A stretch of DNA of 64,000 nucleotides from an uncultured Elusimicrobiales bacterium. GTDB lineage: Bacteria; Elusimicrobiota; Elusimicrobia; Elusimicrobiales; Elusimicrobiaceae. Shown one piece after another: positions 1-13,323 of the stretch (position 1 is the first letter of the stretch; every line of letters begins with the position of its first letter). Where the stretch lies: NCBI GenBank assembly GCA_944327085.1, contig CALVGG010000003.1:62001-126000 (forward strand), written 5' to 3'. Both the position numbers and the translations under genes were made by a program. The notes beneath the pieces were generated by a model. That model did not search any database, had not been told where the DNA came from, and was given only the letters and a program-made list of their open reading frames with translations.

Positions 1-396
1 TAACATATTGAGCGTTAATCGCCCCATACTGGTAGTGGTGTTAAAATGCTGTGTGATAGATACAAAAGACGCGTTATGCTTATCCAATACTTCTACAATT
101 TTGCTAAAGTCCATTAAACTGCGGGTTAATCGGTCTATTTTATATACCATAATGATATCTATAAGGCCAGCCTTGATATCCGATAATAATTGCTGCAAAG
201 CTGGTCTGTTTAATGTCCCGCCAGAATACCCACCGTCATCATACTTTGTGGATAAAAGTTGCCAATTCTCATGCTTTTGGCTTTTTATATAGGCTTCACA
301 CGCCTCCCGCTGGGCCTGCAAACTGTTAAATTCAAGTTCTAGGCCTTCTTCGCTGGATTTACGTGTATAGATGGCACACCGTATTTTACTTTTCAT
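1..396 (-). CDS. Large serine recombinase, N-terminal part (cut by window edge)
   Basis: Translating the minus strand from the ATG at 396 gives the resolvase-type catalytic domain of a serine recombinase. It begins with an AIYTRKSSEEG segment, which carries the nucleophilic serine, followed by YDDGGYSGGTLNRPAL and YKIDRLTRS, the usual DNA-strand-exchange motifs. The reading frame stays open to base 1, so about 132 residues are visible and the zinc-ribbon and DNA-binding C-terminus lies outside. Proteins of this class integrate and excise phages and conjugative elements. The start overlaps the end of the DUF2924 gene by 11 nt, so the two are probably co-translated. This places the adjoining operon in or beside a mobile element. 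Confidence 0.9.
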   Translation of the reverse strand, partial: MKSKIRCAIYTRKSSEEGLELEFNSLQAQREACEAYIKSQKHENWQLLSTKYDDGGYSGGTLNRPALQQLLSDIKAGLIDIIMVYKIDRLTRSLMDFSKIVEVLDKHNASFVSITQHFNTTTSMGRLTLNML

Positions 397-772
397 CTTT
401 CACCCCAAAGAACACTTTGCCGTTCCAACTTTTACCTGTTATTGCCTTGGCAATCCCCGATAGACTTTTGTATTGTTTGCCGTTGTATAAGTAGCCGTTA
501 GAGATAACTTCTACTGTATGGACAACTCCCTTATAAGAACGCGTGATTTTAGAGCCGGATTCCAAGATAACAGTGTGTTTATTGACCGACACAGAAGCCT
601 GTTTAACCTCATTAAAAAAGCCAAGGAAAGAAATTTTCTCCCGCTTGACTTGTTCATACCAAATTAGATATTTAATAATTAAGCTACGACGAATTGGCGG
701 TATCGGCCGGTTGATTACTTCGGTCCATTTGGCACGCAACTGCTGAACAGTACAATGTGTATAGTCGGTCAT
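386..772 (-). CDS. DUF2924 family protein
   Basis: A protein of 128 residues. The C-terminal pattern, a basic ITRSYKG followed by HTVEV, then YNGKQYKSLSGIAKAITG and WNGKVFFG, is the hallmark of DUF2924. These small proteins of unknown function are typically encoded directly upstream of large serine recombinases in phage-like elements. An ATG at 790 is also in frame, but the ATG at 772 is preceded by AGGAGG at good spacing and is the better start. The gene overlaps the recombinase start, so the pair forms a mobility module transcribed leftward, away from the NAD operon. Family assignment is by motif recognition; the biochemical role is unknown. Confidence 0.85.
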   Translation of the reverse strand: MTDYTHCTVQQLRAKWTEVINRPIPPIRRSLIIKYLIWYEQVKREKISFLGFFNEVKQASVSVNKHTVILESGSKITRSYKGVVHTVEVISNGYLYNGKQYKSLSGIAKAITGKSWNGKVFFGVKDEK

Positions 773-788
773 ATCCCCTCCTATACAC

Positions 789-817
789 ATTACGGCTTAC
801 TAGGGCCTAGAAGTCAA
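789..817 (-). promoter_or_regulatory. Putative promoter with dyad for the DUF2924/recombinase pair
   Basis: On the minus strand TTGACT (812-817) is followed after 17 bp by CGTAAT (789-794), a 4/6 match to the -10. An 11-bp dyad, CTAGG-N-CCTAG (800-810), sits in the spacer where a repressor could block polymerase. The SD of the DUF2924 gene follows closely. The assignment is by pattern only. Confidence 0.4.
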
Positions 818-1088: not shown

Positions 1089-1117
1089 TTGACAAATATA
1101 TATATTATCATTATAAT
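1089..1117 (+). promoter_or_regulatory. Perfect sigma70-type consensus promoter of the NAD operon
   Basis: TTGACA (1089-1094) and TATAAT (1112-1117) are both perfect consensus hexamers separated by exactly 17 bp. The first gene starts at 1153 with AAGGAGG at 1142-1148, so the leader is short. Such a strong promoter implies high expression unless repressed, and repeats overlie the spacer, the -10 and the start region. Confidence 0.85.
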
Positions 1118-1138
1118 ATTATCAAGATAATATTATCA
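1102..1138. promoter_or_regulatory. Triple 14-nt-spaced operator repeats, probable NrtR-type site
   Basis: The 9-mer ATATTATCA occurs three times at exactly 14-nt intervals: 1102-1110, 1116-1124 and 1130-1138. The second and third copies extend to the 12-mer ATAATATTATCA. The last also forms the perfect palindrome GATAATATTATC (1126-1137). The copies cover the promoter spacer, the -10 and the transcription start. The operon encodes an NrtR-type Nudix regulator, which in other bacteria represses NAD genes, so autorepression is the simplest reading. That link is inference. Confidence 0.6.
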
Positions 1139-1152
1139 TAAAAGGAGGGCGC

Positions 1153-1668
1153 ATGAAAATACTGATTGTAGTAGATATGCAAAAAGATTTTATAGATGGT
1201 GCATTGGGTACAAAAGAAGCTATAAACATCCTTCCGGCCGTACAAGCAAAAATTAAGCAGTACAAAGAAATGGGAAGCCCTGTCATTTTTACGCGCGATA
1301 CTCATTTGGAAAATTATCTGCATACCCAAGAAGGCAAACTTTTGCCTGTCCCTCACTGCATTAAAAACACGCCCGGTTGGCAAATTGATCCGTCTCTAGA
1401 TACGGCAAATGCCACCTTACTTGATAAGCCCTCTTTCGGCTCGCTTGCTCTAGCGGAATGGGTAAAGCAACACTATTCGCAAGTACAAGAAATTGAACTG
1501 ATTGGTTTATGCACGGATATTTGCGTATTGTCAAATGCTGTGATTTTGAAAGCAGCTTTTCCGGAAGTAACCATATCGGTTGATTCTTCGGCTTGTGCAG
1601 GAGTAACCCCTGCCAGCCACCGCAACGCATTAGAAGCAATGAAAATGTGCCAAATTCAAGTGCAATAG
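1153..1668 (+). CDS. pncA: Nicotinamidase / isochorismatase-family hydrolase
   Basis: 171 residues of the cysteine-hydrolase fold that converts nicotinamide to nicotinate and ammonia. Visible hallmarks are VVDMQKDFIDGALG near the N-terminus (catalytic Asp), FTRDTH (metal-binding Asp and His), a lysine in the middle (LLDKPSFGS), and GLCTDICVLSNA, where the second cysteine is the nucleophile. The length is usual for short PncA enzymes. It is the first gene of the operon, with a strong SD and 9 nt to the next gene. No nicotinate phosphoribosyltransferase (PncB) is recognisable in the operon, so the fate of nicotinate is unclear; the PRTase domain at the operon's end or host PncB could use it. 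Confidence 0.85.
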   Translation: MKILIVVDMQKDFIDGALGTKEAINILPAVQAKIKQYKEMGSPVIFTRDTHLENYLHTQEGKLLPVPHCIKNTPGWQIDPSLDTANATLLDKPSFGSLALAEWVKQHYSQVQEIELIGLCTDICVLSNAVILKAAFPEVTISVDSSACAGVTPASHRNALEAMKMCQIQVQ

Positions 1669-1677
1669 GAGTATACT

Positions 1678-2454
1678 ATGATTTATATCAATAATCAAAA
1701 AGTAACACCGGAACATTTTCCAGATGGAACTTTGCGTTTACATCTTACTCCTGTTGGGGAGAAGGCTAATATTGCTTGGCAATATGAAAATAATGAAGAA
1801 TTAATTGTGTTATATTTCACGGTAAAACACTTGCGGGCGTCTGGAACAAGCCATTTAACCTTGCATATGCCGTATATTCCCAATGCCCGTATGGACAGAG
1901 TAAAGAATGATGATGAGGTTTTTACCCTTAAATATTTTGCGGATTTCATTAATTCGTTGCAATTTGATAGTGTAATAGTGCGAGATCCTCACTCTGCGGT
2001 ATCTCTGCAACTAATTGAGCGAATAACTTGTGAAGATATCCGCCCTTTTATTACCAAATTGTGTGATACCCTTTTAACACAACAGGATGTCGTCTTTTTT
2101 CCGGATGCAGGTTCTTGCAAACGTTATCAAGGATATTTGAATCATAATTTTATTTATGGAGTCAAAGAACGGGACTGGAAAAGCGGCAAAATCCTTGGCT
2201 TGCATGTAGAAGGTACAATCCCCCCTGCCCCGTTCAATGTGTTAATTATAGATGACATATCTTCGTACGGAGGAACTTTCTATCACTCGGCTAAAAAGCT
2301 CAAAGAATTGGGCGCAGATAAAATTTGGCTTTACGTGACCCATTGTGAAAATAGTATTCTGGATGGAGAGCTAATTAAAAGCGGGTTGGTAGAAAAAATA
2401 TATACTACCCGCAGTGTATTTACAAAGCAACACCCATTAATTGAAATTATTTAG
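1678..2454 (+). CDS. Ribose-phosphate pyrophosphokinase family protein (Prs- or Adps-like)
   Basis: 258 residues, clearly shorter than the usual ~315 of housekeeping PRPP synthetase. Visible motifs are MPYIPNARMDR with the following acidic loop (compare PYARQDR in Prs), RDPHS (metal and ATP region) and LIIDDISSYGGT, the PRPP-binding loop. The expected reaction is transfer of pyrophosphate from ATP to ribose-5-phosphate. Short Prs homologues paired with a NAMPT-family gene also occur in phages. In the phage NARP1 pathway the homologue (Adps) instead pyrophosphorylates ADP-ribose. The sequence alone does not decide between the two substrates. It sits 9 nt from the next gene with a TAGGAG SD inside the gap. 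Confidence 0.85.
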   Translation: MIYINNQKVTPEHFPDGTLRLHLTPVGEKANIAWQYENNEELIVLYFTVKHLRASGTSHLTLHMPYIPNARMDRVKNDDEVFTLKYFADFINSLQFDSVIVRDPHSAVSLQLIERITCEDIRPFITKLCDTLLTQQDVVFFPDAGSCKRYQGYLNHNFIYGVKERDWKSGKILGLHVEGTIPPAPFNVLIIDDISSYGGTFYHSAKKLKELGADKIWLYVTHCENSILDGELIKSGLVEKIYTTRSVFTKQHPLIEII

Positions 2455-2463
2455 GAGAAGATT

Positions 2464-3942
2464 ATGAGAATACCGCCTTTATTATTATGTGACTTTTATA
2501 AAACCGTTCACAGCGAACAATACCCTGCCGGAATTACTAAACTAACCTCTTATTTCACACCGCGCATGAGCCGTCTGAACGAACAGGATAAGTTGGTAAT
2601 GTTTGGTTTACAAGCATTCATTAAAAAATACCTAATTGAGTATTTTAATGAAAATTTCTTTGACATCCCCAAAGAAACGGCCCTTACCGAATACAATCGT
2701 ATCCTATCGCATACTTTAGGCAAGGGAGCTTATCAAGATGATAAAATCGCACAACTTTATGATTTAGGTTATCTGCCCCTTGAAATTAAAGCTATTGCCG
2801 AAGGGACACGGGTGCCTGTCAAAGTACCCATGATTGAAATCAGTAATACACATCCTCAATTTGCATGGTTAGTCAATGCAATTGAGACGCTTATGAGTTG
2901 TTCGTTGTGGCACCCTATGTTGAGTGCAAATGTCGGCTATAATTACCGGCAGATTGTCAATAAATATTATGCACAAAGCGTGGAGGATAATGTACCGCGA
3001 GCAAGGGCTTTGGGGGATTTTAGTATGCGTGGACAAGAAAGTTTGGAAAGTGCTACTGCCAGCAGTGCAGCGTTCTGTCTATCTTTCTTAAACACGGCTA
3101 CGGTTCCAGCTATTCCTTGGTTAGAACATTATTATAATTGCGATTGCACAAAGGAACCTGTTGCCTTTGGAGCCATTAGCACTGAACATTCTGTTATGTG
3201 TAGCAATTATGCGGTAGATGGAAATGAAACAGATATGATTAAACGTCTGCTTACCCAAATTTACCCACACCATTCCTTTTCTATGGTCAGCGATAGTTAT
3301 GATTATTGGAATTTGGTAGACAAATTAGTAGTAGAATGTAAAGATGAAATTCTATCCCACGATGGGGCTTTATTAATACGCGGAGATAGCGGCGATCCCG
3401 CTGAAATTGTTACTCAAACAGTTTTTCACTTATGGAATACATTTGGCGGTACTGTAAACAGCAAGGGTTATAAGGTGCTTAATCCACACATTAAAGCTAT
3501 TTATGGGGATAGTATTACCCCTCAACGTGCCGAAAAGATATTCCGCACGCTAATTGAACATGGGTTCGCTTGCAATAACGTATCTTTGGGAGTAGGCAGT
3601 TTTTCTATGCAATGTTTAGAAGAAAATCAAGAGTTCAAACCTTATACACGAGATACATTTGGAATTGCTGTGAAAGCCACCTATGGAGAAATAGGAAAAA
3701 AACCATTACTGATTTTTAAAAATCCCAAAACAGATGATGCTCATTTCAAAAAATCTCAACGTGGTTTATGCCGTGTTTTTTATAACGAACAAGGCGAAAT
3801 CACCTATCAAGATGGTTTTGATGTTCATAACTTTCCGACACTGGAAGAAAACTTACTGCAAACCGTTTTTAAAGACGGAAAGTTAATCAAGCAATTTACG
3901 TTGCACGAAATCCGCAACACATTACACGGAGGAAACTTTTAA
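2464..3942 (+). CDS. nadV: Nicotinamide phosphoribosyltransferase family protein (NadV- or Namat-like)
   Basis: 492 residues, the usual length of NAMPT/NadV. Recognisable blocks in order are CDFYKTVHSEQYP with YFTPRMS at the N-terminus, RGQESLESATASSAAF, AISTEHSVM, MVSDSYDYWN, LLIRGDSGDP (the substrate-binding Arg/Asp segment, RPDSGNP in animal NAMPT), YGDSITP and LGVGSFSMQ. The canonical reaction is nicotinamide plus PRPP to NMN. In the phage NARP1 route a homologue (Namat) joins nicotinamide to ADP-ribose pyrophosphate to give NAD directly. Being next to a short Prs-type gene fits either chemistry. The gene symbol reflects the family and not a proven substrate. The next gene follows after 1 nt. 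Confidence 0.85.
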   Translation: MRIPPLLLCDFYKTVHSEQYPAGITKLTSYFTPRMSRLNEQDKLVMFGLQAFIKKYLIEYFNENFFDIPKETALTEYNRILSHTLGKGAYQDDKIAQLYDLGYLPLEIKAIAEGTRVPVKVPMIEISNTHPQFAWLVNAIETLMSCSLWHPMLSANVGYNYRQIVNKYYAQSVEDNVPRARALGDFSMRGQESLESATASSAAFCLSFLNTATVPAIPWLEHYYNCDCTKEPVAFGAISTEHSVMCSNYAVDGNETDMIKRLLTQIYPHHSFSMVSDSYDYWNLVDKLVVECKDEILSHDGALLIRGDSGDPAEIVTQTVFHLWNTFGGTVNSKGYKVLNPHIKAIYGDSITPQRAEKIFRTLIEHGFACNNVSLGVGSFSMQCLEENQEFKPYTRDTFGIAVKATYGEIGKKPLLIFKNPKTDDAHFKKSQRGLCRVFYNEQGEITYQDGFDVHNFPTLEENLLQTVFKDGKLIKQFTLHEIRNTLHGGNF

Positions 3943-3943
3943 T

Positions 3944-4684
3944 ATGAAATTTGATGCTACTCAAGTAAAGGCTGATTTAATTCACTGGTTGCAACATGTT
4001 TTTGCGACCAATGGCCCCACTTGTAAAGCGGTCATTGGTATTTCGGGCGGTAAAGACAGTACCATAGCAGCCGCTTTATGTGTAGAGGCATTGGGAAAAG
4101 ACCGTGTGTTTGGGGTGCTAATGCCCAATGGAAATCAACATGATATTGCATGCTCGTATGAGGTAGTTAAATGTTTGGGCATTGCTCATTGTGAAATTAA
4201 TCTCAAAACCGCGTATGATTATATCGTTGATGAAATAGAAAAAAATACCGAGGTTTCTCTTCAAACCAAAATTAACTTGGCGCCCCGCCTACGTATGAGC
4301 ACATTGTATGCCGTTTCCCAATCCCTTAACGGACGCGTGATTAACACATCTAATTTGTCAGAAATTTGGGTGGGATATTCTACGCGTTACGGAGATAGTG
4401 TGGGGGATTTCTCCCCGTTGGCTCAATTAACAGTTAGCGAACTTAAACAGTTGGGACATACGCTGGGTTTGCCTCCCTACTTAGTGAATAAAACGCCCGA
4501 GGACGGTTTAAGCGGTAAAAGTGATGAAGAAAAAATGGGATTTTCCTATGCGGTGTTAGATGCTTATATTCGCACGGGAAAATGTGATGATTTACAGGCC
4601 AAGGCCCGCATTGATGCATTACATGCTCAAAATGAATTTAAGCGCTTGCCAATGCCTAGTTTCCCTTATCCAGGAACTCTATGA
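3944..4684 (+). CDS. nadE: Ammonia-dependent NAD synthetase
   Basis: 246 residues of the N-type ATP pyrophosphatase family. VIGISGGKDSTIAAAL near residue 30 is the PP-loop that binds ATP. INTSNLSEIWVGYSTRYGDSVGDFSPL and the following LTVSELKQLG match the NAD synthetase core, and TPEDGLSGKSDEEKMG is the flexible loop with the conserved SD/DE pattern. It amidates nicotinate adenine dinucleotide to NAD. There is no glutaminase domain, so free ammonia is the nitrogen source. An SD lies within the end of nadV. The stop overlaps the next start (ATGA), so expression is coupled to the regulator. Confidence 0.9.
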   Translation: MKFDATQVKADLIHWLQHVFATNGPTCKAVIGISGGKDSTIAAALCVEALGKDRVFGVLMPNGNQHDIACSYEVVKCLGIAHCEINLKTAYDYIVDEIEKNTEVSLQTKINLAPRLRMSTLYAVSQSLNGRVINTSNLSEIWVGYSTRYGDSVGDFSPLAQLTVSELKQLGHTLGLPPYLVNKTPEDGLSGKSDEEKMGFSYAVLDAYIRTGKCDDLQAKARIDALHAQNEFKRLPMPSFPYPGTL

Positions 4685-5583
4685 ATGAACAAGAATTTTT
4701 GAAACAGTACGATCAACAACATTACCCACGCCCTTCCCTAGCTGTGGATATGGCCGTTTTTTCTGTGATAAGGCAGGAAACGGGTAATTACCGCAAGTTG
4801 CCAGAACAGAAACTGTCTGTACTTTTGATTGAAAGGGCCGAACACCCGTTTCAAAACCAATGGGCTTTGCCGGGTGGATTTGTCTTGCCAAATGAAACAG
4901 TAGAAACAGCCGCGCGGCGTGAACTGGAAGAAGAAACCGGAATTAAGGAGACTGATCTTAGACAACTGCATATATTTAGCGAACCCGAACGAGATCCGCG
5001 GGGGTGGATTATTTCTTCTTCGTTTATGGCTTTAACGGAAATTACTCAATCCCTTTCGTCTTGCAAAGATGCTAAGCAAGCCAAATGGTTTACTTGCACA
5101 TACACTACGCTAGAGGAACAAACAACGCAAGAGACAGAAAGCAGTTATCAAATCCTCCAACGCAATAAACTGACGTTACAAAGAAATGATATGGAATTAA
5201 CAGCAGTTATTGAGGTAAAACAAACATTATCTTTGTATAACCGAAAAACTACTTATACCGTTGTGGAAAATACGGGGCTGGCCTTTGATCATGCCAAAAT
5301 TATTGCCTGTGCAATTACGGCACTACGCAATGACTTGGAAAGGTCCACAGATGCCTTTCGGTTTTTACCGGAAACCTTTACCCTGACGGATATTCAACAA
5401 GTGTATGAAACCATTTTGGGGAAGAAACTACTAACAGCAAACTTCCGCCGAAAGATTGCACCTTATGTGATACAAACCAACCGCCAAACTACTGCCCGTG
5501 GACATCGTTCGGCTCAACTATACAAACGAAACAAAACCGCTTTTTTAGGGAAACAAATTCTGCAAGTTACACATGAGGCCTAA
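4681..5583 (+). CDS. nrtR: NrtR-type Nudix transcriptional regulator of NAD metabolism
   Basis: 300 residues. The N-terminal half is a Nudix domain with an intact box: WALPGGFV, then the REL-EEE-TGI core, matching GX5EX7REUXEEXGU. The C-terminal ~80 residues (LPETFTLTDIQQVYETILG, NFRRKI and a final RSAQLYKRN) are the winged helix-turn-helix of NrtR regulators. Known NrtR proteins bind ADP-ribose or related nucleotides and repress NAD genes. Many have lost Nudix activity, whereas here the catalytic glutamates are kept, so it might also hydrolyse ADP-ribose. It overlaps nadE by 4 nt, and the repeats in the operon promoter are its likely target. Confidence 0.85.
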   Translation: MNEQEFLKQYDQQHYPRPSLAVDMAVFSVIRQETGNYRKLPEQKLSVLLIERAEHPFQNQWALPGGFVLPNETVETAARRELEEETGIKETDLRQLHIFSEPERDPRGWIISSSFMALTEITQSLSSCKDAKQAKWFTCTYTTLEEQTTQETESSYQILQRNKLTLQRNDMELTAVIEVKQTLSLYNRKTTYTVVENTGLAFDHAKIIACAITALRNDLERSTDAFRFLPETFTLTDIQQVYETILGKKLLTANFRRKIAPYVIQTNRQTTARGHRSAQLYKRNKTAFLGKQILQVTHEA

Positions 5584-5585
5584 AA

Positions 5586-7570
5586 ATGAAAGAAAAACGA
5601 AGAGAAGTTCTCACAACTGAAAACTATTCTCTTATAAGAGCGGGGAAACCGCTTGTCCTTATGTATGTTGTTCACGAGCCAGACAGCATTTTTGCTGCCG
5701 CTCTGATAGCAAAATTCACAGATTATGCCTTCAGAATCGTTTTCACCAACAGACATGATATAAACTATGATATCACGAGCCATGCAGAAATTCTAGAACC
5801 ATACAAAAAGGTATTTATCATCGGTCCGGCTTTGAACGAATACAGCATCAAGTATCTTGAACGCGCTAGAAAAGAGATAGTATACATGGGTAGCACAAAC
5901 AAACTCAAAGATTTCATGCCAGAACTGTATACAGAGAAGGAAGTTCGTAGGGATAGTTCGGTATTTTATCTTGAAAATGACTCAGTAACCAGTCGTGTTG
6001 CCGCCTATTTTTCATACAATGACAGTATTGTTTCTCATATTTACCAATACACGACTAAATACATAAAAGACGAATTATCTGATGTTATAGTATTTGAGTA
6101 TCTCAATTTCGGGTATAGCTCATCTACACTGTTTGAAATGTTTTTGGAGTATATCAAAAAGCCCTTTCAGCTCGGGGTTTCCTTTGCGGATGATATTAAA
6201 AGGGCCGTAATATGCAATAAGACTGTTCTTGCCAAAGCTGTAGTTCGTAAAGTAGGAGGTACAAATACAGCATTCATTCGCGGTGGTTGTCCGTGTACCC
6301 TCATTTTGAATCAGGCATTGCGCGAACTCAGTTGCGAAGCAGCTGTAAATGTATGTATGCACCGACAACATTTTACACTCATCACTTCCTCGAAGAAGAC
6401 ATGTTCCTCTATGTTTGAGGAATATGTCAGTCGCTTTATTTACAATGGCTGCGGATCGTATTCATGTGGGGCTTGCTTTGGTGCTGACTATACGTTTGAG
6501 GAGTTCATTTCTGCTTTCAGCGAGTGTAAAAATATAAACGGATTTAGTAAGGAGCGCCTACTGAACTATGATGTATTTGATCCGGCAGATTATGAGTGGC
6601 TACCATTTGAAAAATATTCACTTTATAAGAACTTCAATTTCACGATATTCCTTGATGACTACTGTAACGCCGATTGCAAATTTTGCATCGAGCAGATAAA
6701 AACAGAAAATAATGGGCGAATAAACAAGGTCGGCAAGATAGAGGACAAGGAAATTTACCTAAGAAGACTTGACTATATCTTAGGCAAGATAAGGCCCTTT
6801 AATCCCAGCATTTCTGTCACGGGTGGAGAACCCCTTCTCTCTCCTTATTTTAGAGAAGCTCTCCGTATTCTGGGGAAATATAGCTTCCGCAAAGTGGTCA
6901 TTACTACAAACGGCATCAATATTGATAAGTATACAGACGACATAATCCAAGCCGGTATATCTCATGTAAACTTTTCACGTCCGTCCTATGATACGAATGT
7001 TTGCCAACAAATAATGCGTTTTCGTGAACAGCATTCTTCTATTGATATCCTTAGGGAAGCCATTATAAAACTTGAAGCAAACGGCGTGCGCACCCGCTTT
7101 AACTGCATCATTAGCTACGAAGGAATAAGTAGGTTGTCAGAGATAAAAAAATACCTTACCTTCATACATTCCATGGGTTGCAAGAACGTGGTTTTCCGCG
7201 AGCTGATGTCTTTCAACGAACAGAACTACAAAAACGAGGAGAAAATGGCTTATGCGGTTAAAAACCGTGTTCGGATGAATGATATTTGGGCGGAAATAGA
7301 GGCGGACTGTGAATTTATTCCGTTTTCTACTACATCGAAATTTACAAGTTTCGCGATATGACAGTTGTTTCAGAAAGGGCAAACCTGAAATTCCTTGAAA
7401 AATACAGATGTGAAAACTTACATTACATCTATGAAATGGTGTTCCATCCGAATGGCAATCTTTGTGCCGGATGGAGCGAAACTGAGGATATTCTTGACAG
7501 CTTTGTTGCCTGGCAGAAAAACACTTGTGCTGAAAAACAAGTATTATCAGTTAATCCGGAGGATTTATGA
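5586..7570 (+). pseudogene. DHH-like / radical SAM fusion protein, interrupted by a -1 frameshift
   Basis: The first frame (5586-7361, 591 aa) ends shortly after EFIPF. A second frame running to 7570 continues with FYYIEIYKF and ends with MVFHPNGNLCAGW, matching the C-terminus of the paralogue at 7567. One lost T in the run at 7323-7326 explains the break; a programmed -1 shift or an assembly error are alternatives. N-terminal ~310 residues: HEPDSIFAAALIAKF, a later serine-rich segment and GCGSYSCGACFG recall DHH/DHHA1 phosphoesterases with altered metal ligands (tentative). C-terminal part: FLDDYCNADCKFC is a CX3CX2C radical-SAM motif, followed by SVTGGEP. The 7570 stop overlaps the next ATG. 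Substrate unknown. Confidence 0.75.
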
Positions 7571-8580
7571 CCCTTGCCAACCATGTATTTCCTTTTGATT
7601 TACATACCATGACCGATAAATATCGGTTTATCCCTTTCTTAAAAGATAAAGAGTTGTACAGCAATTTTAACTTTTCGGTTTTTTTGGATGACTACTGCAA
7701 TGCGGATTGTAAATTTTGTGTAGCAAATATTCGCTGTAAAACTAAAAATAGAAAGAATGTTTTTGGGAAAAATTACAATGCTTATCTTAAATCATTGGAT
7801 AAAATGTTTGCCTTTTTACGCCCGCTTAACCCGACTATCTCTCTAACAGGTGGAGAACCTACTTTATTCCCATTATTTGACGAGGTGGTTTCGTTGGTAA
7901 ATCAATATAATTTTCGCATTCGTGCCGTTACCACGAATGCCTCCCAACTACTAAAAAACAATCAGCGTATCTTAAACTGCTTAATCAAAAACAATTGGAC
8001 GTACTTAAATCTTTCGCTGCCGCACTGGGAACAGAAACGCATTGAAGAAATTATGAGGTACAAAGATACATATCCATCTTCTTTTGCTGATTTACTCAGC
8101 CAAGCACATCAAGCAATTAAAGGAACTTGTGTTAAACCGCGCTTATCTTGCGTCTTACTCAAAGAGGGCGTAGGCGATCTTTCCGCTTGCGAAAAATATG
8201 TTAATTTTTATAATAAACTGGGATATGACAATTTTATTTTTAGACAATTAACCTATTTTAACGGGAAAGATACCAACCAAGATATTGTTCGTTATAACGA
8301 ACAGAATGTGGTTACTTGTGAAAAAATATGGAAAGAAAATGAGGAGCAAGATAAATTTACATTTTTTAAGCGGAATATCGGATACTACTACTATGTGGAA
8401 TTGTATAAATATGCCAATAACACCATTGCCTTCGAATCAGCCGATCTGGCCACACGTAAACAAGAAATGCAAAAATATAACTATAAAAAAGTGTTTGAAG
8501 TAGTTTATCATCCAAACGGAAATTTATGTTCGGGCTGGGATGGAACCCAAGAAATATTATTAAACTATCAGGATTTATAA
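7567..8580 (+). CDS. Radical SAM protein, paralogue of the preceding gene
   Basis: 337 residues. FLDDYCNADCKFC near residue 40 supplies the three cysteines for the 4Fe-4S cluster and is identical to the motif of the upstream fusion gene. SLTGGEPTLFP is the SAM-binding GGE motif, and ITTN-like AVTTNAS follows. The C-terminal VVYHPNGNLCSGW is shared with the paralogue and offers one conserved Cys near its end, which is too few for a full SPASM cluster. It overlaps the previous stop by 4 nt (ATGA) and has GGAGG upstream, so the two were translated together. Tandem duplication followed by divergence is likely. The reaction is unknown; the operon suggests a nucleotide or pyridine-related substrate (inference). 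Confidence 0.85.
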   Translation: MTLANHVFPFDLHTMTDKYRFIPFLKDKELYSNFNFSVFLDDYCNADCKFCVANIRCKTKNRKNVFGKNYNAYLKSLDKMFAFLRPLNPTISLTGGEPTLFPLFDEVVSLVNQYNFRIRAVTTNASQLLKNNQRILNCLIKNNWTYLNLSLPHWEQKRIEEIMRYKDTYPSSFADLLSQAHQAIKGTCVKPRLSCVLLKEGVGDLSACEKYVNFYNKLGYDNFIFRQLTYFNGKDTNQDIVRYNEQNVVTCEKIWKENEEQDKFTFFKRNIGYYYYVELYKYANNTIAFESADLATRKQEMQKYNYKKVFEVVYHPNGNLCSGWDGTQEILLNYQDL

Positions 8581-8581
8581 T

Positions 8582-9256
8582 ATGCCTTCTACGCGCCTAT
8601 ATATTAATATTACGAATCACTGCAATGTGGCCTGTCCGTTTTGCTGTATGTATTCTTCCCCAGCAAAGCGCACCTTTATGCCCCTGCAAAAATTTACGGA
8701 GATACTATCTGCTCATCAAGATTATGAACTGCAATTAGAAGGAGGGGAACCTATGCTGCACCCCCAGATTAAACCTTTTTTGGAACAGGCCTGGGCAGAT
8801 CCTCAATGCAAAAAACTGATTGTGCTTACCAACGGCCTTAATTTACGCAACAATTTACAGGATATAGTTGCTTGGAGAGGGCTTTCTACAACGCCGACTG
8901 TTCTTAAAATCAGCGTGAATTCTTTTTTAATGAAACAACATCCCCGTTTTTTATTTGAAATTGCACTGGCCATACAAAATATCCAGTTTATTCCCAACTT
9001 TTCTATCCAACTAAACGTACGCAAATCGTACGAAGATCCTTTGGATATAGAACAAGAACTAAAAAAGTACAATCTGCTGTCCTTTGCCAATAACATTTTC
9101 TACTTTAACAGGTATGGACGGCTACAAGAAGATAAACGATACGGCGACATTGTTATTAACCAAAATATTGATACGTGGAAGGTATATGCCTCGGACGGAA
9201 CCTGTTTTAATACCAATTTAGTTGCAAGGAGCGAGTACGAAAATGAACTCCATTAA
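8582..9256 (+). CDS. Short radical SAM protein
   Basis: 224 residues, compact for the family. It opens with LYINITNHCNVACPFCCMY, a classical CX3CX2C cluster site followed by one further cysteine. LEGGEPMLHP is the GGE motif and IVLTNGLNL the next strand. The second half (FSIQLNVRKS and the NNIFYFNRYGRL stretch) keeps the partial TIM-barrel pattern. No auxiliary-cluster domain is visible; a single late Cys (DGTCFNTN) remains. It starts 1 nt after the preceding stop and overlaps the next gene by 14 nt. MoaA-like fold; substrate unknown. Confidence 0.8.
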   Translation: MPSTRLYINITNHCNVACPFCCMYSSPAKRTFMPLQKFTEILSAHQDYELQLEGGEPMLHPQIKPFLEQAWADPQCKKLIVLTNGLNLRNNLQDIVAWRGLSTTPTVLKISVNSFLMKQHPRFLFEIALAIQNIQFIPNFSIQLNVRKSYEDPLDIEQELKKYNLLSFANNIFYFNRYGRLQEDKRYGDIVINQNIDTWKVYASDGTCFNTNLVARSEYENELH

Positions 9257-9800
9257 AAAACATCCAGAACATTTTTCCTTAAACCTCGGGAAATTACTTC
9301 TACATAATAACGGACAAAATCCACGCATTACGTATTACCGATTATCCGAATTATTTTCTATTCCAAAAGAAGATTTGAATTCAGAGCGGTTTCAAGAGTT
9401 TGTAATTGATGCCTGCCAAACAACAAATAACACACTGTTAGCTAATTTGTTGGCTGATTTACACAAATACCTGAGTGAGTTTACGGTTCGTACGTTGTTA
9501 ATCAGTTCTGTACAGCAGGCAGAAATTATTAAGCCGTTCATCTCACATATACGATTAGTTGAAAGCATCAATCCGGAAGTTTTAACCGATTTTCCTATAC
9601 ATAAAACACGGTTGGCGTGTTCTTCTTGGGAAGAAATACAAAAGATGCAACAATACCGCTATTACATTTACCGCAACCCGCTGCCCCAGCAGATGAACCT
9701 TCCATTTGAGTTTATTAAATACACTAAAACCCCGGAATACAACATTTCATATTACCGGGACGGGGATTTTATATACAGTGTTTATAAACAAGGAGAATAA
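9243..9800 (+). CDS. Unknown 185-residue protein in the radical SAM cassette
   Basis: I do not recognise a family. The frame is open from 9222, but the ATG at 9243 has AAGGAG about 12 nt upstream and is preferred; it overlaps the end of the short radical SAM gene. The protein looks soluble, with no signal peptide or membrane segment. It begins with basic SIKKHPEH, then alternates helical-looking and strand-like stretches, and ends in a tyrosine-rich, strand-like tail (YRYYIYRNP, YNISYYRDGDFIYS). It has only two cysteines and no obvious metal site. Its fixed place between two radical SAM genes suggests a partner, substrate-binding or carrier role, which is inference. Confidence 0.6.
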   Translation: MNSIKKHPEHFSLNLGKLLLHNNGQNPRITYYRLSELFSIPKEDLNSERFQEFVIDACQTTNNTLLANLLADLHKYLSEFTVRTLLISSVQQAEIIKPFISHIRLVESINPEVLTDFPIHKTRLACSSWEEIQKMQQYRYYIYRNPLPQQMNLPFEFIKYTKTPEYNISYYRDGDFIYSVYKQGE

Positions 9801-9801
9801 T

Positions 9802-10674
9802 ATGCGATGCAAAATGTTAAGTGTAATCGTTGGCAACAGTGCGTGTGTGGCGGCGTGTCCGTATTGTGTTTCCGGAGAGGTACCAAATGCCAAGAACACC
9901 CAAACGCCTACCGTCAATTGGCGCAACTTCCGTATTGCATGCAAGGCTGCAGATCGGTATGGCGTGGATACTGTCATGCTTACAAGCCGCGGCGAACCCA
10001 CTTTGTTCCCGCAGCAAATTACCGACTATTTAGAACACTTGCATCCATTTCCCTTCCCATTTATAGAATTGCAAACAAACGGCATTCCTTTGGCACGTAA
10101 TCCTAAAAAATATACTCCGTTTTTGAAGAAGTGGTATGAGTTGGGATTGACTGTAATTACACTGTCAGTGGTAAGTCATTTGCCTTCTAAAAATCAACCG
10201 ATTTACGCCCCGCACGGCCAATATATTGACTTACCTGCTTTGATTCGTTTTTTACATTCGTTTGGTTTTACCCTGCGTCTAACCTGCGTACTATGCAAAG
10301 GCATTACTTACACACCTGCCCAAGTGTGGGAATTTATCCAGTTTGCCAAACAAAACCAGGTGGAACAAGTAACGCTTCGCCCTGTAAATGACGAATTTAG
10401 AAGACCTTCTGCCAAACAATGGATCATAAAGCACCGTTTATCCCCGCGAGATAAACAAGCTATTACCCGTATGTTAGAAAAAGAAGGACACCGTGTATTG
10501 GAACTGGGCCGAATTGGTACCGTGTACGACGTGGAAGAACAAAATGTTTGTTTCAGTGTTCCGCTTAATAAATACACAATAGAAACAGACCCGAACCAAA
10601 TTCGCCAGTTAATCTTCTTTCAAGATGGACACCTGCGTTATGAATGGGAAATGCCCGGAGGAAACTTGTTATGA
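9802..10674 (+). CDS. Radical SAM protein (MoaA-like)
   Basis: 290 residues from the ATG at 9802, which has AGGAG at 9791-9795; the frame extends upstream to 9706 but that part overlaps the previous gene. SACVAACPYCVSGEV carries the CX3CX2C cluster motif, and MLTSRGEPTLFP is a GEP-type SAM-binding motif. IELQTNGIPL and RLTCVLCKGI follow in order of the barrel strands. The C-terminus (QLIFFQDGHLRYEWEMPGG) resembles the ending of archaeal and phage-type MoaA-like proteins. The stop overlaps the next start (ATGA at 10671). Substrate unknown; close coupling to the second NadE-like gene suggests that the products act in sequence. Confidence 0.82.
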   Translation: MRCKMLSVIVGNSACVAACPYCVSGEVPNAKNTQTPTVNWRNFRIACKAADRYGVDTVMLTSRGEPTLFPQQITDYLEHLHPFPFPFIELQTNGIPLARNPKKYTPFLKKWYELGLTVITLSVVSHLPSKNQPIYAPHGQYIDLPALIRFLHSFGFTLRLTCVLCKGITYTPAQVWEFIQFAKQNQVEQVTLRPVNDEFRRPSAKQWIIKHRLSPRDKQAITRMLEKEGHRVLELGRIGTVYDVEEQNVCFSVPLNKYTIETDPNQIRQLIFFQDGHLRYEWEMPGGNLL

Positions 10675-11696
10675 AAGTATATAATCCGCCCACTGATTTA
10701 CATTTATCAACTACCCTTGCGCAATACTTAGCACAAATTCGCAAAGAGAGGGGATTTTGTGCTTGCGATTATCTGCAAGAGAAGGCAACATTGTTGGCCC
10801 GTTACTTAGACAAATACCGTTTGCAAGCGTGTGTCCTGGGTGTAAGCGGTGGAGTAGATTCGGCGGTGGCGTTAGGGATCTTAAAACATACGGCCCAGCT
10901 GCCAAACTCCCCGCTTAAACACATCTTTGCGTTAATGATGCCTGTTTCTAATTCTTCCGGCACTACCCACCAAAATGAAGCCACTCAACGGGGAAAGGCT
11001 CTTTGCCGAAAATGGGGTTTGAAACCGTATGTTATTGACTTGCACGATACCAATCAAGCCATGCGAACATCCGTAGAAACTGCTCTGCAAGTACAAGCGA
11101 CCGATTGGGCTATTGGGCAGCTGGTTTCTTGCAGTCGGACTCCGATTGTGTATTATGTTGCTAATCTATTGGTTCAAGAAGGTAAGAAAGCCCTTGTTTG
11201 CGGAACGACCAATCTAGATGAAGGTGGTTATTTAGGATTTATGGGAAAAGCATCCGATTGTATGGTGGACTTACAACTTATTTCTGATTTGCATAAATCT
11301 GAGGTATATGCGTTGGCCCGACACTTAGACGTATTACCCGATATTTTGCAAGCAGTGCCTAGTGGGGATATGTACGATGGCCGAAGTGATGAAACTGTAT
11401 TCGGGGCTCCTTATGATTTCGTAGAGCTGTATTTGCATTATTTGAATTTACCCGCACAAGAACAAACCCAGCTATTAAACGACTGGGACGATACAACTCG
11501 CCAACAATTTAACACTTTGGCAGCTAATTTGGAGCGTCTCCACCGCTATAATGCACACAAATATATGGTAAAATCTCCGGCGGTACACTTAGACATATTA
11601 CCTAGCACCGTCAAAGGCGGTTGGGATAATTCCTACACGGATTGGAAAGCGGTTTTGTATGAAAAAAACACTATGGGAACAGATCTGTGTTCCTAA
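10671..11696 (+). CDS. Second NadE-like ATP-pyrophosphatase (NAD synthetase family)
   Basis: 341 residues, about 95 longer than the first NadE in this operon. VLGVSGGVDSAVALGIL near residue 60 is the PP-loop. CGTTNLDEGGYLGFMGKASDCMVDLQLI and DLHKSEVYALARHL correspond to the NadE core, and SGDMYDGRSDETVFG to the flexible loop with its SDE signature. It therefore activates a carboxylate or equivalent with ATP for amidation. A second, diverged NadE next to a canonical one argues for a different substrate, for instance a modified pyridine dinucleotide (inference). The start at 10671 overlaps the previous stop; the longer frame from 10644 is less likely. It overlaps the next gene by 38 nt. Confidence 0.82.
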   Translation: MKVYNPPTDLHLSTTLAQYLAQIRKERGFCACDYLQEKATLLARYLDKYRLQACVLGVSGGVDSAVALGILKHTAQLPNSPLKHIFALMMPVSNSSGTTHQNEATQRGKALCRKWGLKPYVIDLHDTNQAMRTSVETALQVQATDWAIGQLVSCSRTPIVYYVANLLVQEGKKALVCGTTNLDEGGYLGFMGKASDCMVDLQLISDLHKSEVYALARHLDVLPDILQAVPSGDMYDGRSDETVFGAPYDFVELYLHYLNLPAQEQTQLLNDWDDTTRQQFNTLAANLERLHRYNAHKYMVKSPAVHLDILPSTVKGGWDNSYTDWKAVLYEKNTMGTDLCS

Positions 11697-13323
11697 AAAT
11701 GCAACCCGTCAACACATAGACAAGACCTATTTTTCGCTACAGCATAATCCGGCCACGCGTTTGGCATGGAAAGTGTTGCGCGATGATTTTTACCGGGATA
11801 TATATGCCAAATATGAGGATCTTGCTATCGTAGAGAAAGCAGGGTTCTTAGAAGATAATTTCGAATTACAAGACATATCTCTGTTACAGGATATAACGTT
11901 TCGGACAACGCCGTTGCCTTTGATAAAAAACCTTCCCAAAAACGCTCATCCGATTGTATTACTCAGTACCGGAGGATTCTGCCCTCTGCACGAAGGGCAT
12001 CTTCAAATGATGTACTTAGCCAAAGCCGCATTGGAATCTGCAGGGAAACAAGTGGTTGGCGGCTATTTCTCTATTTCACACCCCAGTTATGTGAACACTA
12101 AAACAAATGTACACGGAACACCGGGATCCTGGCTTTATGATTTACAAAAGCATTTGACTTCTCATCCCTGGCTACTTGCTGACCCCTGGGAAAGTTGTTA
12201 TGTGCCTTCTTTCGTTAATTTTACAGAAGTTATCACTCGTTTGCAGCGGTATCTGCGTGCCTATTTTCACCCTAACACGCAGGTTGCTTATGTGTTTGGT
12301 TCTGATAATGCATGGTTTATGTACTGTTTTGAAAAACGAGGGTTAGGAGTATGTGTTGAACGCACGGGAAGCAGGGAATTATTTAAACAATTAAAAGCAA
12401 AACTGGGTTCCGAGCGGTGCTTATTTGTTCCGAATAATACTCCTCATGCGGCGGCCAATTCTACTGCACTGCGTACTTCCGTAACAAATATAGAATCGGA
12501 GGAGGCCTTGCATTATTATGTGCGCAACGAAGGGACTCCTCCGCTAGAACATTTTCCCTTGTCTTCAAAAGAATTGGTTCAAATTCAACAATATTTCGCT
12601 AACGAATTTATACGCATCTTAAAAAGCAGCATAGATGAAAAAGCGACAATATCCACCGTTTTTGCCAAACAGCAAGTTGAACAAGCCAAACAACTGTTAA
12701 AGGGCAAAAAAACAATCAGTTTAGATCATTTATTTATAGCTGACTATAATGTATCATTAAGCCGGGTATTCCGCTTGTGTGCCACAAACGGATTTCCCAG
12801 CGGTTATTTCGGTGGAAAAAGCCCTCTTACAGAGCAATTAAATGCAATTGTTCCAGGGAAATATATCTTGGTAGATGATGACCGAGCTACTGGCGGTACC
12901 TTAAAAATGTTTTATCAAGCGTTACCAACCCATGTGTCAATCAGTAAGGTTCATTTACTTATTAATCCACAAAACACTATTCCCCATGAAATATTAGATT
13001 TACGGGATTTCTTGCTAGGGGCGCAGTATGGTGGCCTATGCGTGCAACTGCCTAATGGAAAATACGCACGTACACCGTATTTATTACCCTATGTATCCCC
13101 GTCCGCACGCAGTACGATTTTGCCCTCACAGGAACTATCTTTTTCAAAACAGGTCTGGCAGTTAAATTATCAAATTTTCAGTCAAACTAGCTGCCCGGTT
13201 TGTATGCGCAATCTTCCTTCTGAAACAAACACCTTCCTAAGTTATCTGGGTTTTTCTATGAATGAAACCGTGTCCAAGATATGCCAGTATCACCTAGACC
13301 GATTGAGTTGGGCAGGCCATTAA
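11659..13323 (+). CDS. J-like / NMN-adenylyltransferase-like / phosphoribosyltransferase fusion
   Basis: 554 residues in four parts. Residues ~1-60 resemble a J domain: a helix with IDKTYFSL, then HNP where J domains have HPD, then AWKVLRDDFYRDIYAKYED. Residues ~95-280 are a nucleotidyltransferase: STGGFCPLHEGHLQMM gives the HxGH motif and NSTALRTSV the (S)TxxR motif of NadD/NMNAT enzymes. Residues ~350-450 contain YILVDDDRATGGTL, the PRPP loop of type I phosphoribosyltransferases. The C-terminus has CPVC and a late CQYH pair, possibly a zinc site. One chain may thus join a base to PRPP and then adenylylate it. It is the last operon gene; no terminator is visible after it. Confidence 0.8.
   Translation: MKKTLWEQICVPKNATRQHIDKTYFSLQHNPATRLAWKVLRDDFYRDIYAKYEDLAIVEKAGFLEDNFELQDISLLQDITFRTTPLPLIKNLPKNAHPIVLLSTGGFCPLHEGHLQMMYLAKAALESAGKQVVGGYFSISHPSYVNTKTNVHGTPGSWLYDLQKHLTSHPWLLADPWESCYVPSFVNFTEVITRLQRYLRAYFHPNTQVAYVFGSDNAWFMYCFEKRGLGVCVERTGSRELFKQLKAKLGSERCLFVPNNTPHAAANSTALRTSVTNIESEEALHYYVRNEGTPPLEHFPLSSKELVQIQQYFANEFIRILKSSIDEKATISTVFAKQQVEQAKQLLKGKKTISLDHLFIADYNVSLSRVFRLCATNGFPSGYFGGKSPLTEQLNAIVPGKYILVDDDRATGGTLKMFYQALPTHVSISKVHLLINPQNTIPHEILDLRDFLLGAQYGGLCVQLPNGKYARTPYLLPYVSPSARSTILPSQELSFSKQVWQLNYQIFSQTSCPVCMRNLPSETNTFLSYLGFSMNETVSKICQYHLDRLSWAGH

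Follow-up and report, generated by a model that had tools for sequence, protein, structure and literature searches.

A mobile operon joining a NARP1-like NAD block to radical SAM genes and a putative second pyridine-nucleotide line in an Elusimicrobiales bacterium

An operon of twelve genes (g1–g12) spans positions 1153–13323 of a 64,000-nucleotide stretch of DNA from an uncultured Elusimicrobiales bacterium. This stretch (hereafter, the window) corresponds to G000:C3:62001-126000 of the 1.67-Mb assembly of this small-genome bacterium (contig CALVGG010000003.1). The operon divides into three modules: (A) g1–g5, a candidate block for rebuilding nicotinamide adenine dinucleotide (NAD), (B) the radical S-adenosylmethionine (SAM) pair g8/g7, and (C) g9–g12, candidate enzymes of a second pyridine-nucleotide line. 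Both additions to the NAD block, modules B and C, have relatives in other organisms, which suggests that the operon may make or rescue an undescribed NAD-like molecule. The features are listed below in order of position; G and L numbers denote genomes and loci.

Window −1208 to 396 (contig C3:60792-62396), minus strand: serine (resolvase-type) recombinase of 534 amino acids, C-terminal part in the window (open reading frame (ORF); N-terminus recognised by reading)
386–790, minus strand: DUF2924 protein, recombinase partner gene (PF11149, E 3.7e-25)
1090–1140, plus strand: promoter TTGACA-N17-TATAAT (about 1090–1118), overlapped by the AT-rich imperfect palindrome AATATTATC-AA-GATAATATT (from sequence)
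1153–1668, plus strand: g1, pncA-like nicotinamidase, isochorismatase family (PF00857, E 8.9e-30)
1678–2454, plus strand: g2, Prs-like and Adps-like (closest characterised relative, the SPbetaL1 Adps gene, 41%)
2464–3942, plus strand: g3, NAMPT family, Namat clade (9-residue insertion in the selectivity-clamp helix)
3944–4684, plus strand: g4, NadE, ammonia-dependent NAD synthase type (PF02540, E 7.5e-50)
4681–5583, plus strand: g5, NrtR-type NUDIX and winged-helix regulator (PF21906, E 8e-19; PF00293)
5586–7361, plus strand: g6, DHH-fold domain (residues 1–330) and radical SAM domain, frameshifted
7358–7570, plus strand: g6 C-terminus in the shifted frame (C-terminal match to g7-family proteins and to the intact L069 homologue)
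7567–8580, plus strand: g7, radical SAM protein with a single CxxxCxxC cluster (PF04055; invariant C195)
8582–9256, plus strand: g8, small radical SAM protein, nearly always paired with g7 (PF04055)
9246–9800, plus strand: g9, 184 amino acids, no recognised family
9802–10674, plus strand: g10, radical SAM protein of another family (start revised to 9802)
10671–11696, plus strand: g11, NadE2, a distinct subfamily (PF02540, E 2e-30; start revised to 10671)
11659–13323, plus strand: g12, N-terminal part of about 80 residues, NMNAT domain (HEGH, NSTALRT), and type-I phosphoribosyltransferase (PRTase)-like domain (VDDDRATGGT) (NMNAT3 matches; plasmid homologues)

All genes of the operon lie on one strand with overlaps or gaps of at most 9 nt, except at the g6–g7 boundary, where the ORFs stand 205 nt apart because the g6 frame is broken. 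The tight twelve-gene array described in an earlier, sequence-only reading of the window therefore holds in strand and spacing and fails at g6. The single promoter of that reading is matched by the consensus before 1153, and the families that it named (PncA, Prs-like, NAMPT family, NadE, NrtR, radical SAM proteins, a second NadE, and an NMNAT-like protein) were recovered. The palindrome at the promoter is probably an NrtR operator, and AT-rich repeats resembling it are found upstream of pncA in G202 and G131. The operon rides on a mobile element, as had been proposed: the serine recombinase and the DUF2924 gene adjoin its left end, and its G+C content is 40%, below the 45–52% from window position 16 kb onward. 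DUF2924 remnants also lie beside the operon copy of G202 (L007:3432-3761).

In other bacteria, the g8/g7 pair is associated with NAD(P) operons. At least two NAD gene classes lie within 10 kb at 8 of 26 g7 loci and in none of 49 control windows taken from those genomes (p = 9e-5), and at least one class at 9/26 loci against 4/49 control windows (p = 0.006), all counts being scored with one query set and uncorrected for kinship among genomes. Bacilli and their relatives carry g8/g7 inside NAD(P) operons with PncA, NAPRT, adenosine diphosphate (ADP)-ribose NUDIX, NadE, NadD, PncC, NAD kinase, and NrtR genes, and the gene order varies: NadD-g8 (L072, L075, L088, and L089), pncA-g8 (L080), NAMPT-g8 (L071), or g7-pncA-NAPRT-NadE-NadD-NadK-NrtR (L064). 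NadB-like and NadK-like genes stand just upstream of g8 in a woesearchaeote (L082). The radical SAM block is neither confined to the genome of the window nor always apart from NAD genes. Gene content, homology, and these conserved neighbourhoods are established directly. Both nadA and nadC are missing in eight genomes whose NAD operon holds g8/g7 or, in L103, a related middle radical SAM gene, and these genomes thus depend on NAD salvage. A role of the radical SAM enzymes in making quinolinate was considered and rejected, the joint loss of nadA and nadC leaving no orphan nadC.

The g8/g7 cassette is conserved in Firmicutes, Bacteroidota, Betaproteobacteria, archaea, and phages. A g7 alignment scan of 84,980 species yielded 40 loci, in nearly all of which g8 precedes g7; a third radical SAM gene often separates the two. 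The only invariant cysteines are C44, C48, C51, and C195 among 48 g7 homologues and C14, C18, and C21 among 44 g8 homologues; SPASM auxiliary-cluster cysteines were not found at the C-terminus of either set, which argues against peptide maturation. A P-loop kinase gene lies directly 3′ of g7 in six Firmicute loci (L075:10948-11490, L088:10960-11553, L070, L072, L073, and L076). A conserved three-gene cassette, found in Betaproteobacteria, Nitrospinota, and one Asgard (Helarchaeota) genome, combines an adenylate-forming (PaaK-like) enzyme with g8-like and g7-like genes (L094:7751-10999, L090-L101), and one phage (L048:8025-16290; IMGVR_UViG_3300009081_000009) carries NAPRT, g8, g7, a third radical SAM gene, a glutamine-type NadE, PncA, NadD, and NrtR consecutively.

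The g6 frame stops at 7361, and its final ~70 residues run on in another frame (ORF 7358–7570). Ruminococcus (L069) encodes an intact homologue of 662 residues that reads through. In the window, the frame changes near a TTTT run at about 7323–7326, which may reflect a genuine mutation, an error in the assembly, or frameshifting. The N-terminal fold is of the DHH/DHHA1 type according to an AlphaFold2 model of the L069 homologue (predicted local distance difference test (pLDDT) 87), for which Foldseek returned PAP phosphatase 8a8k (E 5e-10), RecJ, and viral NrnB. The DHH metal-binding triad was not found in eight g6 homologues.

Since g6, g7, and g8 all score against prokaryotic viperin models, the radical SAM enzymes might produce an antiviral or antimetabolite nucleotide in the manner of viperin, with the NAD genes keeping the cell alive or lending nucleotide handling. 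The kinase that often follows g7 in Firmicute cassettes would suit such a role, as would the location on a mobile element and the immunity genes beside the Leptospira plasmid cassette described below. Viperin membership was nevertheless rejected, because g7 reaches 40 bits and g6 52 bits against an NCBIfam family cut-off of 180 bits, scores comparable to those against MoaA. Moreover, none of g12, NadE2, and the plasmid oxygenases has a match among the dedicated defence models; the one hit is to a generic model of the 2-oxoglutarate (2OG) fold. We regard this explanation as improbable.

Module C has its own relatives. The sequence-only reading called g12 an NMNAT/PRTase fusion; the NMNAT part stands on family matches, and the PRTase part is called from a VDDDxATGGT-type motif and weak similarity, the window protein having no Pfam match there. 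Both the NMNAT motifs and the phosphoribosyl pyrophosphate (PRPP)-loop motif are present in the window protein, whose structure, predicted from a two-sequence alignment, has a pLDDT of 33. Plasmids of Variovorax, Streptomyces, Leptospira, and Paenibacillus encode relatives of g12 with 26–29% identity over 84–94%, and in all four groups (L305-L308) the gene order is NadE-like, 2OG-Fe(II)/PhyH oxygenase, g12-like. The Leptospira cassette is preceded by an NrtR gene and lies near TIR and abortive-infection genes, and that of Paenibacillus has a short extra ORF. The plasmid NadE proteins are 36–47% identical to g11, whereas g11 and g4 share 24%, which sets the g11-type NadE2 apart as a separate subfamily. 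Recurrence of this cassette in four other bacterial groups strengthens the idea of a second line of phosphoribosyl transfer, adenylylation, and amidation, which had been drawn from the window alone.

The plasmid oxygenases retain the HxD...H motif. No oxygenase homologue was found in the window or in the G202 locus (L007), and the radical SAM gene g10 stands with g9 directly before g11. We read g9/g10 as a putative oxygen-independent replacement, in this one lineage, of an oxygen-dependent step. Close relatives of g12 were not found in phages, IMG/VR, or 295 same-phylum genomes (G202 excepted), and 398 further genomes gave none that was convincing. The last seven genes, which the sequence-only reading treated as a set, never occur together outside the genus; g6–g8 and g11–g12 come from two separate backgrounds. 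Elsewhere in the genus, a radical SAM gene distantly related to g10 follows cinA/pncC, an NMN (nicotinamide mononucleotide)-deamidase-type gene, after 18–40 nt.

Further observations concern the surroundings of these genes. The N-terminus of g12 (window 11659–11890), absent from the plasmid homologues, resembles a degenerate J-domain in being helical, with HNP in place of HPD. Three same-genus loci (L018:8875-14939, L019, and L023) have cinA, a g10-like radical SAM gene, and a cas9-family gene with cas1-/cas2-like genes in succession. Two actinobacterial plasmids (L310:5746-7490 and L311:5755-7538) carry an NMNAT-like gene, distantly related to the NMNAT domain of g12, together with a phosphotransferase gene.

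Module A had been taken as a phage-type NAD refill unit, and it is specifically of the Adps/Namat kind, phage NAD+ reconstitution pathway 1 (NARP1), which has been described together with its clamp motif (PMC12774641). The adjacent g2 and g3, separated by 9 nt, are 41% and 45% identical to WIT26982 and WIT26983 of phage SPbetaL1, where the g2 relative likewise sits just upstream of Namat. g3 scores 438 bits against SPbetaL1 Namat (PDB 9w5x) and 175 bits against rat NAMPT, and a tree places it among Namat proteins with fork support of 100/99. Its clamp reads GSFSMQC(L)EENQEFKPYTRD, with F at position 3 retained, C at position 7, and a 9-residue insertion; the identical insertion in the clamp helix (GSFSMQCLEENQEFKPYTRD) occurs in G202, G131, and the human-gut phage MT835544. 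This human fecal phage (MT835544.1; L051, 17697–22947) carries Adps-like, Namat-like (65% to the window), NadE, and PncA genes, a NARP1 variant. Because pncA and nadE are paired with no NMNAT nearby in MT835544 and Phass-1, the pairing suggests nicotinate and nicotinate adenine dinucleotide (NaAD) as intermediates. Nearest-structure comparison gave no split of NaAD versus nicotinate mononucleotide (NaMN) specificity for g4 and g11. Judged by sequence, module A is a variant of NARP1 near the human-gut phage version, with a correspondingly predicted chemistry.

Within the genus, a NAMPT-family gene occurs in 3 of 66 genomes. The whole unit is known from two genomes only, that of the window and G202, which has the complete operon minus g6 at 77–98% protein identity and keeps both gene order and tight spacing. 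Identity between the two copies is uneven by gene (98% for nadE, 96% for g10, and 77% for g12), which may point to recombination or to constraint that differs between genes. In G131, pnuC and nadR come after pncA-prs-NAMPT-nadE-nrtR, and a g10-like radical SAM gene overlaps or ends against nadR.

We propose that the operon couples NARP1-like NAD rebuilding to a second pyridine-nucleotide line with a redox step, leading to an NAD-type dinucleotide that may be either a modified NAD or ordinary NAD recovered from a non-standard base. We give this general proposal a probability of roughly 45%, of which a true NAD analogue would take about half. Under NrtR-type control, the Adps-like g2 would activate ADP-ribose, the Namat-like g3 would couple the activated ADP-ribose to nicotinamide or, where PncA has acted first, to nicotinate, and NadE (g4) would amidate the acid form. 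In module C, the PRTase domain of g12 would attach ribose-phosphate to a heterocyclic base, its NMNAT domain would add adenosine monophosphate, and NadE2 (g11) would amidate a carboxylate. These enzyme types mirror the order of NAD assembly: base plus PRPP, nucleotide plus adenosine triphosphate, and acid to amide. The redox step, on the base or the nucleotide, would be carried out by radical SAM enzymes here and by the 2OG-Fe(II) oxygenase in aerobic relatives, and the g8/g7 pair may work on the same nucleotide pool.

Nicotinate phosphoribosyltransferases are type II enzymes. The separate NadE subfamily and the type-I PRTase-like domain suggest that module C either uses a base that is not nicotinate or reaches nicotinate in an unusual way. 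The product would help the mobile element wherever NADases of the host or of rivals drain the NAD pool; such a benefit under NAD-depleting immunity is plausible, given module A and the position of the Leptospira cassette near TIR and abortive-infection genes. We infer every chemical step of this scheme, the operator role, and the benefit. In its most specific form, the scheme would yield a dinucleotide with a non-nicotinamide or altered base, made through an interchangeable radical SAM (anaerobic) or Fe-2OG-oxygenase (aerobic) step; mobile elements and plasmids would use it as a stand-in cofactor or a signal that NAD-depleting immunity could neither destroy nor read. We consider this form unlikely.

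Several findings weigh against the proposal. In phages, NAD genes accompany 1 of 8 g7/g8 loci and 9 of 57 loci around an unrelated gene, that is, with no enrichment, and g10-like loci (10/30 against the same 9/57) are borderline and not significant (p = 0.056). The control consists of 69 loci around a tRNA-His guanylyltransferase-like gene, 57 of them non-redundant, a ribonucleotide-reductase control of only two loci having been set aside. As this matched control itself has NAD genes nearby, phage co-occurrence was dropped as evidence, so that the co-occurrence of g8/g7 with NAD genes holds for bacteria but not for phages. The betaproteobacterial and archaeal g8/g7 cassettes have an adenylate-forming enzyme and no NAD genes nearby. 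The exchange of oxygenase for radical SAM enzyme is seen once, g9–g10 standing with g11–g12 only in this genus; the Paenibacillus relative of g12 lacks the NMNAT motifs; and the g3 clamp deviates from the Namat consensus. The host already owns nadA, nadC, nadE, and NMNAT-family genes, nadA and nadC giving it de novo NAD synthesis.

The phage background and the cassettes lacking NAD genes would also be expected if the radical SAM genes were unrelated cargo for peptide, RNA, or cofactor modification, inserted by chance behind a strong promoter, and the decay of g6 in the window and its absence from G202 agree with that. We hold such an origin to be quite improbable in view of the bacterial counts (8/26 against 0/49) with their several independent gene orders, the lack of SPASM cysteines in g7 and g8, and the operon order and spacing preserved in G202. 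A different explanation is that the operon supplies NAD only. NadE2 and g12 would then be divergent enzymes for ordinary NAD, and the radical SAM enzyme or oxygenase would free or repair nicotinate or nicotinamide from an unusual or damaged precursor, such as might arise in guts or lysing cells. The eight salvage-dependent genomes with radical SAM genes in a chromosomal NAD operon speak for it, as do PnuC, NadR, PncC, NUDIX, and NadK in the same neighbourhoods. The window host, however, makes NAD de novo and already has the needed enzymes, and the retention of a second, separate NadE/NMNAT/PRT line as one unit in four other bacterial groups suggests that it has a substrate of its own, leaving NAD supply alone as a somewhat doubtful account.

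If the proposed second line does make a distinct dinucleotide in module C, the operon would constitute a mobile NAD-analogue pathway and would point to a new means of withstanding NAD-depleting immunity. Even on a modest reading, it would add a radical step to the NAD metabolism of salvage-dependent gut bacteria, along with a pncA- and nadE-containing NARP1 variant. The plasmid cassettes in aerobic hosts bring the question within reach of ordinary enzymology. To our knowledge, no system described so far matches modules B and C, and the plasmid cassette has no published name. A literature search, with subscription papers outside its range, found no paper linking radical SAM genes with NrtR/NAD operons or treating the plasmid cassette.

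Among known systems, NARP1 shares with the operon the adjacent Adps-like and Namat-clade genes, whose nearest characterised relatives are in SPbetaL1, and the mobile setting. The operon differs in adding pncA, nadE, and NrtR, in a clamp helix with a 9-residue insertion and non-aromatic residues, and in being joined to modules B and C. NrtR-controlled bacterial and phage NAD salvage operons (PncA, NAPRT/NAMPT, NadD, and NadE) have a similar enzyme set and regulator but not the two NadE proteins, the NMNAT/PRT fusion, or the four radical SAM genes. The plasmid cassette has homologous NadE2 and NMNAT/PRT fusion proteins, with an oxygenase where the window has a radical SAM gene and g9. Prokaryotic viperins (pVip) resemble module B in a radical SAM core without SPASM cysteines and in the kinases sometimes near g7, whereas g6/g7 fall well under the family cut-offs and have a small radical SAM partner and an NAD setting. 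LarBCE, which synthesises the nickel-pincer nucleotide, and altemicidin-type NAD-derived products are precedents for special compounds made from NAD precursors; the operon has a different enzyme set, with no Lar or related genes recognised. Its novelty rests on modules B and C, through an observed association and a proposed chemistry, module A by itself being one more version of a known type.

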